Origin: Tannerella serpentiformis
GTDB taxonomy: Bacteria; Bacteroidota; Bacteroidia; Bacteroidales; Tannerellaceae
Assembly: GCF_003033925.1 (NCBI RefSeq)
Contig: NZ_CP028365.1
Location: 1,426,001 to 1,490,000 of the forward strand
Reading direction: 5' to 3'
Length of the DNA stretch: 64,000 nucleotides
The position numbers and the translations under genes are program-made. The notes under the pieces were generated by a model. It searched no databases. It saw only the letters and a program-made list of their open reading frames with translations, and was not told the origin of the DNA. Below, piece by piece: positions 6,480 through 56,313 of this stretch; the stretch's first letter is position 1; each line of letters opens with the position of its first letter.

Positions 6480-7500
6480 TCCTATCGACAGGATCACCCT
6501 CAAACGCCCCGCCTCTGCCATTCCCCTAGCCCGTCCGACTCCCAAACAGGCCACGTCTGCCATTCCTCTACCCCGTCTCACCCTCAAACGCCCCGCCTTT
6601 TCCATTCCTCCACCCCGTCCCAGCCTCAAACGCCCCGCCTCTGCCATTCCCCCAGCCCGTCCGACTCCCAAACAGCCCGCCTCCACCATTCCCCCACCCC
6701 GTCCGACTCCCAAACAGCCCGCCTCCACCATTCCCCCACCCCGCTCCGCCCCCAAACAGGCCACGTATCTCATTCCCCCAGCCCGTCGGACTCCCAAACA
6801 GGCCACGTATCCCATTCCCCCGGGCCGTCGGGTAGTTATTTCGCGTGCAAATCGGATTCTTTCGTACTGAAAGCCTATGATGTGCAGTGCATATGTGATT
6901 CTCACGCATTAGAAACCTACTGTATGCGTTGCAGATAGGATTCTTCTACTCTAAAAGCCTATTTCATGCGTCGCATGAGATATATTCCCAGTATAAAAAC
7001 CTAAGAAGTGCAGCGCAGATAGGATCTTTCCGAGTTAAAAGAATCGCTTATGTGGCGCAGATAGAATCTTCCTGAGTCGAAAGCATACCTTATGCAGTGC
7101 ATGAGGTAGGCTTTTAATGTAGGAATATGCCTTATGCGACGCATGAGGTAGGCTTCTACATGAGGAACATACTATCCGCATCGCATAGGAATGGCTTCTA
7201 TAGTAAGAGATAGCGTTATGCAGTGCATAAGGAAGGCTTTCAGTCTAAGAGAAGCCGATTTGCACGCGGAATGACTGCCCGACGGCCCGGGGGAATGCCT
7301 GACGAGCCCCGTTTGGGAGTCAGACGGGCCGGAGGAATGGCAGAGGCGGACTGTTTGGGAGTCGGACGGGGTGAGGGAATGCCTGACGGGATGTGTTTGG
7401 AGGTGATCGAGGGTGGGGGAATGGCGGACGGGGAGCGTTTGGAAGTGATCGAGGGTGGAGGAAGGATGGACGGGGGGCGTTTCGGATGGGCCGAGGGGCG
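6480..7500. repeat. 1-kb palindromic array on a 42-bp lattice
   Basis: This gap between the broken DUF4160 gene and mutS holds no gene. The left arm repeats a CCATTCC landmark at 6518, 6560, 6602, 6644, 6686, 6728, 6770 and 6812. The core repeats GATTCT-like landmarks at 6855, 6897, 6939, 7023 and 7065 and a TAGGCT landmark at 7107 and 7149. The right arm repeats GAATG at 7293, 7335, 7377 and 7419. Nearly all steps are 42 bp or a multiple. The right arm is the inverted copy of the left arm, and CGCGTGCAAATCGG occurs on both sides of the core in opposite orientation. Core units carry dyads such as TCATGCG-T-CGCATGA. Confidence 0.9.
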
Positions 7501-20400: not shown

Positions 20401-21415
20401 GGCGTGTGCCTTGTATGTCTGCGAAAAGGGGTGCTTTCGTTTGGCATGTGTCTCGTTTGTCTACAAAAATCTATGGGGGCTTTGTTCTCTGGTCCCTCAT
20501 CTTCTTTTCTTTCCTTGATGAAAGAAAAGAAGGCAAAAGAAAATCAAGGCGATGATCGCCTTCTATTTTTCTGGGTACTGGATAGGTGGAATGAATCGTT
20601 GCTTCCGTTTGGCGGGATACTGGATAGGTGGAATGAATCGGTGTTGCCGTTTGACATGTGTCTCGTTTGTCTACAAAAATCTATGGGGGCTTTGTTCTCT
20701 GATCCCTCATCTTCTTTTCTTTCCTTGATGAAAGAAAAGAAGGCAAAAGAAAATCAAGGCGATGATCGCCTTCTATTTTTCCGGGTACTGGATCGGTGGA
20801 ATGAATGGGTGGTGCCGTTTGGCGGGATGCTTAATCGGTAGAATGGATCGGTGCTTCCGTTTGGCATGTGTCTCGTCTGTCTACGAAAATCTATGGGGAC
20901 TTTGTTCACTGGTCCTCTATCTTCTTTTCTTTCCTTGATGAAAGAAAAGAAGGCAAAAGAAAATCAAGGCGATGATCGCCTTCTGTTTTTCCGGGTACTG
21001 GATCGGTGGAATGAATCGGTGCTGCCGTTTGGCATATGCCTTGTATGTCTACAAAAATCTATGGGGACTTTGTTCTTCGATCTCTCATCTTCTTTTCTTT
21101 CCTTGATGAAAGAAAAGAAGGCAAAAGAAAATCAAGGCGATGATCGCCTTCTATTTTTCCGGGTACTGGATAGGTGGAATGAATCGGTGCTTCCGTTTGG
21201 CGGGATGTTTGATAGGTAGAATGAATCGTTGCTACCGTTTGGCATGTGTCTCGTCTGTCTACGAAATTCTATGAGGGCTTTGTTCTCTGATCCCTTATCT
21301 TCTTTTCTTTCCTTGATGAAAGAAAAGAAGGCAAAAGAAAATCAAGGCGATGATCGCCTTCTATTTTTCCGGGTACTGGATAGGTAGAATGAATCGGTGC
21401 TGCCATTTGGCGGGA
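20401..21415. repeat. Composite array on a strict 42/168-bp lattice with pseudoknot modules
   Basis: The landmark CGTTTG (or CATTTG) recurs at 20438, 20606, 20648, 20816, 20858, 21026, 21194, 21236 and 21404; every step is 168 or 42 bp. Each 168-bp segment contains a 13-bp stem with CTTGAT loop (arms begin at 20501, 20711, 20921, 21089, 21299), a purine-rich spacer, ATCAAG and a GGCGA-TGA-TCGCC hairpin followed by T-rich sequence. Long open frames across it, rich in LMKEKKAKENQG, arise because the period is a multiple of three. Confidence 0.9.
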
Positions 21416-21474
21416 TATGTTTTTTCGGACGATGGGGATGTATGTCTTTCTGCCTCTCCCTCTTTTTCGGGAGA

Positions 21475-26788: not shown

Positions 26789-27925
26789 TTAAAGAGGGGA
26801 ATATTCGTCCGACTCCGCGTCATCGTCGTCGGTATAGACGTTGAGCACGCCCGCAGGATACTGCATGGTGGCGCAATGGATGGCACCGCCTTGCTGGATG
26901 AGTGGCAGGCAGTCCACACTGATGATTTCGCGGTCGGGGAAAGCTGTTTGGAGAACCTCTCGAGCCTGTTCGTCCAGCTCGTCGTTACCGTAGGCAGGCA
27001 CCAGCACGGCACCGTTTAGGATGAGGAAGTTCGCATACGTGGCTGGCAGCTGATAGCCGTCCTCGTCAAAGACAGGCTCAGCCATTGGCAGCGAAATGAG
27101 GCGGTAGGGCTTCCCCTCGGCCGTGCGTAGGGCGAGGAGTTCGCGCTCCATGGCCAGTAGCTCGTCGAAATGGCTGTCGTCTGGGTCGGTGCACTGTACA
27201 TAGGCGATCGTTTCCGGGTCGCAGAAACGCGCCAAGGTGTCCACGTGGCCGTCCGTGTCGTCACCTTCGAGGTATCCGTTCTCCAGAATAAGAATACGGT
27301 CAGCATCGAATATGCCCTTTATGATGCCCATGATCGTATCTTTTGACAGGCGCTCGTTGCGGTTCTTAGAAAAGATGCAGCTGGCGGTGGTAAGCACTGT
27401 GCCACATCCATCGGACTCAATGCTGCCGCCCTCCAGCACGAAGGGAGGACTAAAGACTTTGATACCGGGGGCGAAGGCCTGGCCGCTTTCCATCTCGGAG
27501 ACGATCTGGTTGTCGTAGTTGGCTGGATACTTCATCCCCCAGCCGTTAAAGATGAAATTGAAGACCGCGGGTTTGTCGTTGTTTGTGACAGTGATGCCGC
27601 CATGATCGCGCGCCCAGGTGTCGTTGGTGCCCCTGACTTCACAGATGTGAATGCGATCCTGATCGAGGTCTTCGATGTAGGGATGGACGATGTCGGCACT
27701 CGGGGTGACAATCATCACGGGCTCGAAGCGGATGATTTCGCGGACAATGCGGGCGTAGCATTGTGAGATCTCGTCGAGCATAGGCTCCCAGTCGGTGCCG
27801 CTGTGCGGCCACGTGAGCTGTATGCCGCTTTGGGGCTCCCATTCGGCGGGGAGGACGACAAGCGGCAGATTCTCCTCGTCTGATTCAGGCGTTGAGTTGG
27901 CTTTCGGTTCTTTCTGATTGTTCAT
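26789..27925 (-). CDS. aguA: Agmatine deiminase
   Basis: A 378-residue member of the peptidyl-arginine deiminase/guanidino-modifying fold. Conserved features are TWARDHGGIT, the FVLEGGSIESDG segment, GHVDTLARF and the catalytic Cys351 in GGAIHCATMQ. It hydrolyses agmatine to N-carbamoylputrescine and ammonia. Secreted peptidylarginine deiminases of Porphyromonas share the fold but carry signal peptides and extra domains; this protein has none. Its start overlaps the end of queH by 41 bp, so the three genes are one operon. Confidence 0.93.
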   Translation of the reverse strand: MNNQKEPKANSTPESDEENLPLVVLPAEWEPQSGIQLTWPHSGTDWEPMLDEISQCYARIVREIIRFEPVMIVTPSADIVHPYIEDLDQDRIHICEVRGTNDTWARDHGGITVTNNDKPAVFNFIFNGWGMKYPANYDNQIVSEMESGQAFAPGIKVFSPPFVLEGGSIESDGCGTVLTTASCIFSKNRNERLSKDTIMGIIKGIFDADRILILENGYLEGDDTDGHVDTLARFCDPETIAYVQCTDPDDSHFDELLAMERELLALRTAEGKPYRLISLPMAEPVFDEDGYQLPATYANFLILNGAVLVPAYGNDELDEQAREVLQTAFPDREIISVDCLPLIQQGGAIHCATMQYPAGVLNVYTDDDDAESDEYSPL

Positions 27926-28523
27926 TGGATGAGGGGTTTTGCGACTCTGGTCGGATGCTGAACTCGCATCCGCAGTAGTTCTGGTTATAAAAGTTGTATT
28001 CCTTGATCAGTGCGTTGCGGCGATCGCTGAGGCCACCCTTGCGCCAGTTCTGCGCCCAGAAGGTGAGCCCCGGATAGCGCGCTGCAGCCGCTTCACCGGC
28101 CGCGGTGATCTGCTCGAGGCTCTTCCAACGCGACGAGGCGAGGGTGGTGGTGAAGACGGGGAAGTCGTGTTCGTGTGCGTAGCGGGCCACGGTCTCGAGC
28201 CGCACCGCGAAGCACATCTGACAGCGGGCGCCGCGCTCCGGTTCGTGCTCCAAGCCACGGACGCGCTGGCGCCAAGCCGCGTGGTCATAGTCTGCATCGG
28301 TGAAGGGGACACCGAGGCGCAGGGCGTGGCGCTGGAGCTCGGCCTTGCGTTTGGTGTACTCCTCGAGGGGGAAGATGTTCGGGTTGCAAAAGATCAGCGT
28401 CGGGTGCAGCCCGTGGGCCAGCATCCACTCCAAGATGGCGCTGGAGCAGGGTGCACAGCAGGCGTGGAGCAGCACGCGGTCGGCACCGTCGGGGACGATA
28501 AAGGGGGATTTCTTCTGTTTCAT
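27885..28523 (-). CDS. queH: Epoxyqueuosine reductase QueH
   Basis: A 212-residue protein of the DUF208/QueH family, which performs the last step of queuosine synthesis in tRNA, reducing epoxyqueuosine. Four cysteine clusters for iron-sulfur and metal binding are visible: LLHACCAPCS, GARCQMCFAVR and NYCGCEFS, with ARYPGLTFWAQNWRKGG between them. The ATG at 28523 is preferred because it places HACCAPCS at the usual distance from the N-terminus; a GTG at 28556 would add 11 residues. A 42-bp array lies just upstream. Confidence 0.92.
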   Translation of the reverse strand: MKQKKSPFIVPDGADRVLLHACCAPCSSAILEWMLAHGLHPTLIFCNPNIFPLEEYTKRKAELQRHALRLGVPFTDADYDHAAWRQRVRGLEHEPERGARCQMCFAVRLETVARYAHEHDFPVFTTTLASSRWKSLEQITAAGEAAAARYPGLTFWAQNWRKGGLSDRRNALIKEYNFYNQNYCGCEFSIRPESQNPSSNEQSERTESQLNA

Positions 28524-28600
28524 GTTCTGGGGTGGGGACGAGTTATTCCGAGCCACTTCTTAATGCGGGTGCGGCGTAAGCGATGGGTCGATGGAGGGGG

Positions 28601-29224
28601 TATGATAGTCGCGGCAGAATGTCTGCCGACGCCTTCATGGGGTATGATAGCCTCGGCAGAATGTCTGCCGGCATACTCATGGGGTGTGATAGCCTCGGCA
28701 GAATGTCTGCCGGCACACTCATGGGGTATGATAGTCGCGGCAGAATGTCTGCCGACGCCTTCATGGGGTATGATAGCCCCGGCAGAATGTCTGCCGGCAC
28801 ACTCATGGGGTATGATAGCCTCGGCAGAATGTCTGCCGGCACACTCATGGGGTATGATAGCCCCGGCGACAGTGTCGCCGGCACACTCATGGGGTATGAT
28901 AGCCCCGGCGACAGTGTCGCCAGCATGCTCATGGGGTGTGGTAGCCCCGGCGACAGTGTCGCCAGCACGATCATGGGGTGTGGTAGCCCCGGCGACAGTG
29001 TCGCCAGCATACTCATGGGGTGTGGTAGCCTCGGCGACAGTGTCGCCAGCATACTCATGGGGTGTGATAGCCCCGGCGACAGTGTCGCCAGCACGCTCAT
29101 GGGGTGTGATAGCCCCGGCGACAGTGTCGCCAGCATACTCATGGGGTGTGATAGCCCCGGCGACAGTGTCGCCGGCATGCTCATGGGGTGTGGTAGCCCC
29201 GGCGACAGTGTCGCCTGCGTATGA
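28601..29224. repeat. 15-copy 42-bp array with covarying dyad
   Basis: Units start at 28601 and recur every 42 bp to 29189, with the landmark TATGATAG or TGTGGTAG. The first six units carry GGCAGA-ATG-TCTGCC; the last nine carry GGCGAC-AGT-GTCGCC. Both stem arms differ together while the outer sequence stays the same. The array fills the gap between the ABC permease stop and queH. Long open frames in several reading frames across it reflect the period being a multiple of three. Confidence 0.95.
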
Positions 29225-29225
29225 T

Positions 29226-30521
29226 TCATCGATACCCGATCCACTTTACGATCTCCTTCAGGTTCGGTTTCTTGCCATAAAGCAGGATGCCGACGCGGTA
29301 AATGCGGCCCGAGAGCCAGACCACGCCCAGGGCTGTGGCGTAGAGCAGGGCGATGGATAGCAGGGGCTGCCAGAGGGGAATGTCGAACGGCAGGCGCATC
29401 ATCATCACCACGGGCGAGGTCAGCGGGATGAGGGAGCACCAGAAGGCCAGCGGGCCGTCGGGGTTGTCGAGGCTGTAAATGCCGGCGTAGAGGGCGAAGA
29501 TGAGCACCATCATCACGGGCATCATGAACTGCTGAGCGTCCTCGGGGTGATCGATCACGGAGCCAATGGCGGCGAAGAGGGAGGCGTAGAGCAAGTATCC
29601 GCCCACGAAGTAGGCCGCGAAGGAGAGCAGGAGCAACGGCAGGTTGAAGGAGCTGAGCGCCGCCATCCATTCGGCCGTCTGGGCCACGTCGGCGGGCGCT
29701 GCGGCGGTGTCGGTCGGGGTGACTGCGGCGCCGGTGAGGGCTGTGATGGCCCCGACGCCGACCAGGGTCAGCACGCCCCAGAGTAGGAGCTGGGTGAGTC
29801 CGACGAGTCCGATGCCGATGATCTTACCCGCCATCAGGTCGAAGGGCCGCACGGAGGAGACCATCAGCTCGACGATGCGGTTCGTCTTCTCTTCCGACAC
29901 GCCCTGCATGACCATCGACCCGTAGAGGGTGATGAACATGTAGACGGCCAGGGTGAAGACGATGCCGATGATGTAGGCCAGTTGGGTGGAGGAGGTGCTC
30001 TCGGAGCCGTCGTCGTTCAGCTTGACGGTGCGGATCTGGTAATCCACGCGGCTGTCACGGACGATCTGCTCAAGGTTGGGGATGCCATAGGCGGCCATCT
30101 TGTCGTGCTCCATGCGCTGGCGGAGCGTCTCGTTGACTAAGCGCGAGAGGTCGGCGGGGATTTGCTGGCGGGAATAGAGCGTGGCGGCCGAGGAGTCGCG
30201 GAGCAGGTCGTCGGTGACTTCCAACGTGGCGAAGGGGTCGTCGGTCCGCGTGGTGACGAAGCGATAGCCATCGGTGTCGGTGAAGAGCGGTGCGTAGCGT
30301 CCGGTGTGGTCGATGACGGCCACGGTGCGCACGTCATCGGCTCGGAACGAGGCCAGCCAGAGTGGCACGAAGATCATACCGATCATCAGCAGGGGCGTGA
30401 GTAGCGTGAGCAGCAGGAAGGATTTCTTGCGTACGCGGAAGAGGTACTCGCGGCGGATGATCAGGGGGAGGGTAGAGGGTAGAGGATAGAGGGTAGAGGG
30501 TAGAGGGTAGAGGGTAGACAT
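29226..30521 (-). CDS. ABC-2 type exporter permease
   Basis: A 431-residue permease of the NatB/ABC-2 type. A membrane segment near residues 32-55 follows the IIRREYLFRVRKKSF motif typical of these proteins. A large extracytoplasmic domain (about 60-190) comes next, then five to six membrane segments. The stretch GVSEEKTNRIVELMVSSV is a family hallmark. The assigned start at 30521 lies in a heptamer repeat, so the first 18 or so residues (STLYPLPSTLYPLP) are repeat-encoded; the frame stays open further upstream through the array. It works with the ATPase at 31162-32073. The exported substrate is unknown. Confidence 0.85.
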   Translation of the reverse strand: MSTLYPLPSTLYPLPSTLPLIIRREYLFRVRKKSFLLLTLLTPLLMIGMIFVPLWLASFRADDVRTVAVIDHTGRYAPLFTDTDGYRFVTTRTDDPFATLEVTDDLLRDSSAATLYSRQQIPADLSRLVNETLRQRMEHDKMAAYGIPNLEQIVRDSRVDYQIRTVKLNDDGSESTSSTQLAYIIGIVFTLAVYMFITLYGSMVMQGVSEEKTNRIVELMVSSVRPFDLMAGKIIGIGLVGLTQLLLWGVLTLVGVGAITALTGAAVTPTDTAAAPADVAQTAEWMAALSSFNLPLLLLSFAAYFVGGYLLYASLFAAIGSVIDHPEDAQQFMMPVMMVLIFALYAGIYSLDNPDGPLAFWCSLIPLTSPVVMMMRLPFDIPLWQPLLSIALLYATALGVVWLSGRIYRVGILLYGKKPNLKEIVKWIGYR

Positions 30522-30718
30522 ATTGAATAGGGGGTTAGAGGGTAGAGGGTGGAGAGTAGAGGGTAGAGGGTGGAGGGTAGAGGGTAGACATATTGAATAG
30601 GGGGTTAGAGGGTAGAGGGTGGAGAGTAGAGGGTAGAGGGTAGAGGGTGGAGGATAGAGGGTGGAGGATAGAGGGTGGAGGGTAGAGGGTAGAGGGTGGA
30701 GGATAGAGGGTGGAGTCA
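30478..30718. repeat. Heptamer array (GGGTAGA)n, left side
   Basis: Degenerate GGGTAGA/GGGTGGA heptamers run from 30478 to 30718. A 70-bp larger repeat with GACATATTGAATAGG occurs at 30517 and 30587. The array covers the start of the permease gene and the stop region of the four-helix gene. Confidence 0.9.
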
Positions 30719-31078
30719 ATAGTATTTGGATAGCGTTTTGATCATGCTGCTGATCATGCGTCCTACTTCTGTTGAGAGTTCGATGTGTTGTCTCAGATGT
30801 GCCTCGGTGATATATCCGACTCGATAGCAGATTTCGACTTGGGTCTCTAATTCGACGCGTGATCCTTGGGCGTATTGTAGGAAGTGCACCATTTCTTTTG
30901 GGCCTCGTGCATTCCCTTCGGCGATATTGGAGGGAATAGATACCGCAGAGCGCCTCATCTGATCTCCGATTGCGAATTTCTCTTCTCGAGGAAGAAGCAG
31001 GGTAAGGCGATAGGCATACACCGCCAGTTGCATTGCCCTTTCCCAAACGATTAATTCTCGGAAACTCTTTCCAGCCAT
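30716..31078 (-). CDS. Four-helix-bundle protein (23S rRNA intervening-sequence / Avd-like)
   Basis: A 120-residue helical protein of the four-helix-bundle (S23/TIGR02436-type) family. The hallmarks FRELIVWERAMQLA, MRRSAVSIPSNIAEG and the NARGPKEMVHFLQYAQGS segment are present. Relatives are found in 23S rRNA intervening sequences and as accessory (Avd) proteins of diversity-generating retroelements; other copies have no known role. Here it interrupts an ABC exporter operon and is flanked on both sides by GGGTAGA heptamers in inverted orientation. There is no reverse transcriptase nearby. Confidence 0.88.
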   Translation of the reverse strand: MAGKSFRELIVWERAMQLAVYAYRLTLLLPREEKFAIGDQMRRSAVSIPSNIAEGNARGPKEMVHFLQYAQGSRVELETQVEICYRVGYITEAHLRQHIELSTEVGRMISSMIKTLSKYY

Positions 31079-31114: not shown

Positions 31115-31183
31115 AGGCGCATCTCTCTACCCTCTACCCTCTACTCTCTACCCTCTACCCTCTACCCTCTACCCTCTACAGTC
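31115..31183. repeat. Heptamer array, right side (inverted)
   Basis: About nine CCCTCTA/CTCTCTA heptamers, the complement of the left array. The stop codon and last four codons of the ABC ATPase lie inside it. Confidence 0.88.
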
Positions 31184-40192: not shown

Positions 40193-40320
40193 CGCGTAAA
40201 AGAGAAAAAGGGGAAAGGCCCCTACCGGGGCGGGGAGGTTTGCCCGTCTTCAAGCATGTACAGCAGGGATAGGCCCGATGAGCAATCCGCAATCTGTTAA
40301 ATCTTTTAAGAGATGCCCCA

Positions 40321-40550
40321 TTGACAACAGTCAGAGGCATGCAAACTCGGGTTTTCTGGTCATTGACAACAGTCAGAGGGTAGAAAACTTGCGGATTCTG
40401 ATCGTTGACAATCGTCGAAGGACAGAAAACCCGGGTTTTTCGGCCATTGTCAATGGACAACGGGTAGAAAACTCGGGTTTTCTAGTCATTGACAACAGTC
40501 AGAGGGCAGAAAACTCACCGGAGCATGCCTCTGACAGTTGTCAACGGGTA
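40321..40550. repeat. 42-bp tandem array between pyrH and yitT
   Basis: TTGACAACAG-like landmarks lie at 40321, 40363, 40405, 40447 and 40489, all 42 bp apart, with one inverted end unit near 40538. Units carry an AGAAAAC-TCG-GGTTTTCT dyad. No gene is seen between 40193 and 40566. Confidence 0.88.
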
Positions 40551-47770: not shown

Positions 47771-48085
47771 TTCCTTTTCTTGCCTTGATGCAAGAAAAGG
47801 AAGCGAAAAGAAGATCAAGGCCTCACCGAGGCCGGGGAAGTTTGGCCGGGTACCAGGCAAACTTGGCTGGCGTCCCTGACGCCCCTTGATGCAAGAAAAG
47901 GAAGCGAAAAGAAAATCAAGGCCTCACCGAGGCCGGGGAAGTTTGGCCGGGTACCAGGCAAACTTGGCTGGCGTCCCTGACGCCTCTTGATGCAAGGAAA
48001 GGAAGCGAAAAGAAGATCAAGGCCTCTGCCGAGGCCGGGGAAGTTTGGCCGGGTACCAGGCAAACTTGGCTGGCGTCCCTGACGC
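47771..48085. repeat. 101-bp repeat with pseudoknot module and GGCCTC hairpins
   Basis: Copy 1 has a 13-bp stem (47771-47783 with 47790-47802), loop CTTGAT, spacer, ATCAAG (47814-47819) and a GGCCTC-ACC-GAGGCC hairpin. It is followed by GAAGTTTGGCCGGGTACC and GCAAACTTGGC, which pair in part. Two further copies, 101 bp apart, keep the 3' part but lack the 5' arm of the first stem. The period is not a multiple of 42. Confidence 0.88.
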
Positions 48086-48094
48086 CCCCGAGGG

Positions 48095-51334: not shown

Positions 51335-51403
51335 TCCATCCGCCCCTCCCCCATGATATGGGCACCCTCGGACGGGCGTAGGTGGCCCTAATGGCTTCTG
51401 TTT

Positions 51404-51560
51404 ATTAAGTCGCAAGTGATTTCATTTAATAGGAAGAATCTTCCTATTAAGTCGCATGTGCTTTCATTTAGCAGGAAGAATCTGCTTATTAAATCACAGG
51501 CGAATTGACTTATTAGGAAGAATCTGCTTATTAAGTTGTAAGTGATTTGATTTAATAATC
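51404..51560. repeat. 42-bp array with GGAAG..CTTCC dyad
   Basis: ATTAAGTCGC-like landmarks lie at 51404, 51446, 51488 and 51530, exactly 42 bp apart. Dyads include AATAGGAAG-AAT-CTTCCTATT in the first unit and AGCAG-GAAGAAT-CTGCT in the next. Confidence 0.88.
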
Positions 51561-55649: not shown

Positions 55650-56230
55650 GGTGGCGGTCCCGTCAAGCGACTTTTTGGCGTCGCTGCGTGCCAGCGGCTC
55701 CGTCATGCGACATTCTGGCGTCGCTGCGTGCCAGCGGCCCCGTCAAGCGACTTTTTGGCGTCGCTTTCGACCCAGCGGCCCCGTCAAGCGAGTTTTTGGT
55801 GTCGCTGCGTGCCAGCGGCCCCGTCAAGCGACTTTTTAGCGTCGCTGCGTGCCAGCGGCCCCGTCAAGCGACTTTTTGGCGTCGCTGCGTGCCAGCGGCC
55901 CCGTCAAGCGACTTTTTGGCGTCGCTGCGTGCCAGCGGCCCCGTCAAGCGACTTTTTGGCGTCGCTGGGAGCCAGCGGCCCCGTCAAGCGACTTTTTGGC
56001 GTCGCTGGGAGCCAGCGGCCCCGTCAAGCGACTTTTTAGCGTCGCTTTCGACCCAGCGGGCCCGTCAAGCGACTTTTTGGCGTCGCTGCGTGCCAGCGGC
56101 TCCGTCATGCGACATTTTGGCGTCGCTGCGTGCCAGCGGCTCCGTCATGCGACATTTTGGCGTCGCTGCGTGCCAGCGGCGTCGCCCGAGCGACTTTTTG
56201 GCGTCGCTTTCGACCCAGCGGGCCTGTCAA
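55650..56230. repeat. 40-41-bp array of about 15 units with GCGAC/GTCGC dyad
   Basis: CGTCAAGCGA or CGTCATGCGA landmarks lie at 55661, 55701, 55741, 55782, 55822 and on to 56143, 40 or 41 bp apart. Each unit has GCGAC-TTTTTGGC-GTCGC. Two variant groups (CAAGCGACTTTTT and CATGCGACATT) alternate, and units with TTTCGACCC are 1 bp longer. All three forward frames are open over long distances. Confidence 0.92.
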
Positions 56231-56313
56231 CTGACTTGCCGGCGGATGAGAAACAGAAATCCCTTAAATCCTGTGGCAGATCATCTCCCCGGGTCATCGT
56301 AGGCAACGATCAA

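Follow-up and report, generated by a model that had tools for sequence, protein, structure and literature searches.

The nearest described relatives of the arrays reported here are the 22/23/41-nt tandem arrays of Porphyromonas, than which the present arrays are far more numerous and diverse, and the BIMEs of E. coli. The REP/BIME-2 elements of enterobacteria are intergenic and tandemly arrayed, each unit holding two palindromes, with dispersed copies of variable length, and REP/BIME sequences represent one sequence family tied to a GTAG tag and a RAYT transposase. Iterons and partition sites are direct repeats whose phasing, at about two helical turns, puts their proteins on one face, and such arrays occupy single plasmid loci and have a known cognate protein. 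In Porphyromonas gingivalis, intergenic tandem arrays of 22, 23 and 41 nt lie partly inside BrickBuilt and MITE464 elements, which carry a leader, a tail and IS5-type terminal repeats; the 23-nt BrickBuilt is found in 19 places and makes up 0.44% of the genome (PMC4596501). GTAG REPs have also been described (PMC3733652), and template switching at hairpins is known to generate instant double stem changes and loop inversion (PMC8794818).

The window analysed here is a 64-kb stretch of the Tannerella serpentiformis genome, and its arrays were surveyed together with 12 evenly spread 20-kb stretches, giving an unbiased sample of 304 kb (~10% of the genome). In this sample TRF, which misses arrays whose units are too dissimilar to reach its score, identified 54 tandem arrays with lengths of 80 bp or more, 43 of which fall in the 20–23/40–44 bp class and its multiples, with a period of exactly 41 or 42 in 33 of the 54. 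Array density is ~14 per 100 kb (about 40 in the 304 kb), extrapolating to roughly 400 per genome, and the arrays constitute 3.6% of the sampled sequence, or about a fifth of intergenic sequence. Comparison was possible for 39 arrays, which belong to 32 sequence families. By column permutation, a significant dyad (p ≤ 0.05) is present in 14 of 24 arrays from the unbiased sample (combined p 3e-17) and absent from the other 10, and it is present in 10 of 15 arrays from relatives (combined p 2e-11); stems of at least 5 bp vary less than the remainder of their units (0.110 vs 0.178, p 6e-4). Within the window, 42-bp arrays of unrelated sequence at 40319–40516 (p = 0.001) and, between divergent genes, at 51397–51557 (p = 0.006) both carry a significant dyad. 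The window also holds 14.5 units of 40 bp at 55654–56237, a period that is unusual here, and unlike most arrays these units have no significant full-unit dyad. Among draft genomes of same-genus relatives, sampled with one representative per species, the period is exactly 21 in 15 of 33 arrays. The array density for the genus includes contigs picked via weak repeat hits; contigs picked only via the permease gene contain ~7 such arrays in 411 kb of same-genus relatives. Sampling a single stretch per family in 20 further families of the order (351 kb) yielded no such arrays.

Like BrickBuilt and MITE464/PgRS (41-nt), these are intergenic tandem arrays of about two or four helical turns at many loci, with predicted stem-loops and with conserved and variable parts in each unit, and they probably occur in the same order of bacteria. 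They differ from BrickBuilt and MITE464 in the absence of common flanks, in their full-unit dyads, and in the ~32 families and 3.6% of sequence found in the 304 kb. They share two palindromes per unit with REP/BIME elements, but form many unrelated families with a helically fixed 41–42 bp period and are found also between divergent genes. Phasing by about two helical turns is shared with iterons and partition sites; unlike iteron and partition arrays, those described here occupy hundreds of chromosomal loci, and their protein partner is putative. Template-switch hairpins are a mutation mechanism and not an element type, and would explain the paired changes detailed below but not invariant core letters or a fixed period (PMC8794818).

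The focal array (28598–29218) is intergenic and consists of 15 units of exactly 42 bp, reported by TRF as 13.8 copies with 92% matches and 0% indels. Its first block (28598–28849) contains six units with the core GGCAGA-ATG-TCTGCC (GGCAGAATGTCTGCC), starting at 28613, 28655, 28697, 28739, 28781 and 28823, and its second block (28850–29218) nine units with the core GGCGAC-AGT-GTCGCC (GGCGACAGTGTCGCC), starting at 28865 and then every 42 bp up to 29201. Counting cores from 28598 thus bears out the six and nine units of the preliminary description, while its statement that both types share the same outer sequence is only approximately right, as spacers differ between units: at the same locus, spacer identity is 0.88 within a core type, and between core types it is 0.76 over all loci of the focal family. 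The array is located between two minus-strand genes, with the start side of queH (27885–28556; epoxyqueuosine reductase, Pfam PF02677, E 6e-62) facing it on one side and, on the other, an ABC-2 transporter permease reading frame (29226–31046; PF12698) whose stop adjoins it. Residues before ~190 of the permease frame are encoded by 7-bp repeats and have no counterpart in relatives, which match residues 188–606 only, and this probably puts the true start at about 30470. Arrays of the 7-bp GAGGGTA/CTCTACC type lie at the start of this frame, at 30468–30715 and 31125–31179, and the repeat-encoded first ~190 residues match repeats elsewhere in the genome; the annotated start would then be wrong.

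Several conventional identities were considered for the focal array. An open reading frame across it (28543–29670) has no Pfam match, and open frames over the array would be expected merely from 42 being a multiple of three; a protein-coding repeat was rejected on the grounds that 15 arrays in the unbiased sample have a period of 41. A CRISPR array was likewise rejected, given that the spacers are not unique but repeat one another, with 88% identity inside a core type. A search for RNA families over the whole 64-kb window returned one tRNA only, no terminator-like site was found in the region, and viral contigs searched with a 23-base family pattern gave no match.

The core stem is not a chance feature, with two focal units folding at z = -4.0 against dinucleotide shuffles and the dyad of the focal unit exceeding column permutations (p = 0.002). 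Several positions had been read as changing on both arms between the two core types so that pairing is kept, the classic sign of a hairpin or cruciform under selection. Both types do keep all six core pairs intact, but three of the pairs switch together once and not repeatedly: the changed pairs are adjacent (columns 4–6 with 10–12), the other three core pairs are invariant, and all three changes coincide at one boundary (6 vs 7 distinct units). Units 6 and 7, which flank the switch, carry identical spacers across this boundary; the core was therefore exchanged as a module, and the paired changes are one wholesale swap of a 15-base palindrome instead of repeated compensating mutations. When a 6-bp stem is assigned to the core and a second dyad to the spacer, every core cell of the focal array is paired. 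With both core types pooled over 11 arrays, 455 paired cells are observed vs 322 expected, while within core types the variable partner columns give 63 paired cells vs 62.0 expected, that is, no covariation. All double changes in the core of the focal array form one linked block, and repeated compensatory change is not supported. Apparent covariation in the pool of other arrays (z 4.9) comes mostly from L156 and L166, whose units are probably out of register, and from L049, and is not relied on here. In short, when both arms of a repeat unit change cleanly together, one modular swap can be the cause, and such a change counts as evidence for an RNA or cruciform hairpin only once single-step events have been distinguished from independent ones.

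The focal unit family is found in eight further regions of the one-contig, 3.01 Mb genome, in both orientations relative to genes, and two additional arrays of a related GGCAGGC type are present in the same genome; homologous arrays were found in none of 40 other same-genus genomes. Across 134 family units, the cores are GGCGACAGTGTCGCC (53), GGCAGAATGTCTGCC (37), GGCGACACTGTCGCC (20), GGCAGACATTCTGCC (6) and GGCAGGCGGCCTGCC (6), with a few single-arm variants. The focal array shows the pattern that the preliminary description had named as refuting its reading, a single exchange without further paired changes; the family as a whole does not fully follow this pattern, since sister loci carry a third, perfectly paired core, GGCAGGC-G-GCCTGCC. 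The stem noted in the preliminary description is real and perfectly paired in both variants, and its interpretation is in part supported. Loops are found in both orientations with the arms unchanged (AGT 53 vs ACT 20; ATG 37 vs CAT 6), as is the G or C loop of the third core, so that symmetry has been preserved through replacement. Loop orientation is uniform inside each block of a family array, and the middle of the spacer is also found in two orientations (TGGGGTG and CACCCCA). Over 109 distinct family units, the dyad centre i+j=14 is unique among the 42 possible, with 61% Watson-Crick cells vs at most 38% elsewhere, making the whole 42-bp unit an imperfect palindrome with symmetry axes 21 bp apart.

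Seven family arrays (window 28598–29218 and L035–L040) hold both core types in blocks (e.g. 6+9, 8+6, 11+6, 7+7, 11+7 and 10+5), and most of the seven have a locus-specific spacer type, which indicates that the core and the spacer each evolve as a module of their own; between loci that share a core, spacer identity is only 66%. At L037 (7090–7440), L041 (3220–3560) and L047 (4000–4300), n cores enclose n-1 spacers, with a complete core at both ends.

Such modular exchange is what a neutral or selfish minisatellite could produce, an explanation we consider somewhat unlikely overall. Hairpin-prone units would amplify through slippage and unequal exchange, template switching would make or repair both arms at once and flip loops, and short conversion would move cores between arrays, leaving the paired changes mutational and not selected. 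Loops in both orientations on unchanged arms fit this account, loop inversion being a recognised signature of template switching (PMC8794818), and so do the two orientations of the spacer middle and the identical spacers flanking the core switch; one deletion plus one arm copy could relate the two cores. Template switching at palindromes may therefore be the mutational source of the pattern. What it leaves unexplained is the conservation of the core: within array and core type, core heterozygosity is 0.007 vs 0.126 for the spacer, an 18-fold lower variability within the same units that extends to the loop, whose columns are at 0.00. This letter-by-letter conservation points to a symmetric sequence, and not pairing in itself, as what is recognised.

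The same conservation weighs on the proposal that every unit must fold, as RNA or as extruded DNA, which we regard as quite improbable. Core pairing is perfect in all units of the focal array, the family has three distinct perfect stems, the fold z of -4.0 agrees with selection for folding, and the mean fold z of arrays in this genome is -0.98 vs -0.07 for control 42-mers. Selection on folding nevertheless has to contend with loop letters as invariant as the arms and with the lack of covariation, both within core types and in the diverged array described next. An RNA element would in addition be expected to leave a strand bias. Imperfect pairs on the sense strand, transcribed with the neighbouring genes, amount to 327 G-T vs 374 A-C, and this lack of a G-T excess gives no sign of selection via RNA and speaks against an RNA hairpin. 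Nor are arrays depleted between divergent genes: using simple longest-ORF gene calls, among gaps of at least 150 bp, those with an array number 10 of 22 between divergent genes, 21 of 65 between codirectional genes and 3 of 22 between convergent genes (divergent vs convergent, p 0.045). Abundance in divergent gaps and rarity in convergent ones is the opposite of the distribution of a terminator or 3' element, and a terminator role was rejected on this basis and for want of a terminator-like site. Genes beside focal-family arrays are unrelated and largely housekeeping (class I tRNA synthetase, Clp-type chaperones, PEP carboxykinase, DprA, TonB), and no common function was found among them.

An old, diverged 42-bp array at 6867–7244 (nine units, 53% mean identity) has a full-unit dyad with a single centre, at which 56% of cells are Watson-Crick (37% at the runner-up centre). 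The paired alternation of ATGCA/TGCAT with ATGCG/CGCAT once proposed for this array (cited then as 6850–7200) disappears on counting: the pair in question is A-T in 3 units, G-C in 3, A-C in 2 and G-T in 1, as independent columns would give. Its covariation score is 0.247 vs 0.253 in column shuffles, and pairing and double changes are also no higher than in the shuffles. The 56% pairing is at the level of neutral palindrome decay and accords with the neutral minisatellite. The conserved columns, which that account leaves unexplained, mirror each other (r = 0.85, p = 5e-5), a value unmatched in all 1500 neutral-decay simulations of a palindrome. Mirror-image conservation of this kind argues for recognition of a symmetric sequence rather than pairing as such. 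The correlation is strong in this one array; its mean over other arrays is only 0.15 vs -0.04, a figure that selecting the centre through pairing shifts slightly upward.

The dispersal of the focal family over eight further regions, in both orientations to genes, could also be that of a transposase-driven mobile repeat akin to REP/BIME or to BrickBuilt (MITE). The genome has a single Y1 (IS200/RAYT-type) transposase gene (G000:C1:1380004-1380351, L149), and the P. gingivalis arrays of 22, 23 and 41 nt are partly inside MITEs (PMC4596501). Against this, pairwise blastn of the 300-bp flanks of 11 family arrays, looking for a shared leader or tail with terminal inverted repeats, gave one 18-bp chance match; with no common leader, tail or terminal repeat, a BrickBuilt-type MITE with an internal minisatellite was rejected. 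The spacer of the focal family carries RTAG ahead of the core, but the consensus units of most other families lack a GTAG (or CGTC) tag. The RAYT/REP link is further weakened by the Y1 gene being present in just 17 of 41 same-genus genomes and absent from array-bearing ones such as G004. Together with the 32 families in 10% of the genome, these points make a mobile origin very improbable.

Our preferred reading, held tentatively, is that the arrays are phased, two-fold symmetric DNA sites that are probably bound by a dimeric protein and have been amplified and homogenised as a minisatellite. It draws on letter-level conservation that includes the loop, mirror conservation without covariation, full-unit symmetry and whole-turn spacing; whole-helical-turn spacing together with a sequence-specific, conserved, symmetric core is expected of iteron-like phased sites, and both are found here. 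The 41–42 bp units of this genome-wide class of intergenic minisatellites are two-fold symmetric from end to end, placing an axis every ~21 bp, or two B-DNA turns, on the same face of the helix. A dimeric protein, either regulatory or nucleoid-organising, would bind these phased sites as double-stranded DNA, and its binding would keep the core letters and the spacing. Arrays would grow and be homogenised as in other minisatellites, with cores and loops occasionally replaced or inverted as modules, which would yield apparent covariation in one step.

The phased-site reading has difficulties of its own. A single sequence-specific protein would not easily account for some 32 unrelated families in 10% of the genome. 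Nor does binding explain a fixed period across dozens of families, unless geometry itself is what a single protein reads or a common layout is used by many. The fixed period of 21 or 41–42 over dozens of unrelated sequences is equally left unexplained by neutral template switching. A rather unlikely alternative is that dedicated, genus-limited machinery makes and keeps, across the genome, hundreds of arrays of unrelated sequence and identical geometry, their two-fold symmetric units having an axis at every second helical turn, with period 21 in most species and 41–42 here. Geometry and not sequence would then be inherited, for instance as a chromosome-organising scaffold or a self-spreading type of array. 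If hundreds of unrelated arrays share just period and symmetry, DNA geometry, not a motif, would be what is recognised or produced, and either would be an unusual organising principle for a bacterial chromosome.

A second class of repeats is also present, consisting of longer direct repeats (210, 101 and 51 bp) at 20430–21416 and 47783–48088 of the window and at L042 (5998–6256). These contain hairpin-bearing dispersed elements of the CTTGATGAAAGAAAAGAAGG... and GGCGTC...GACGCC types.
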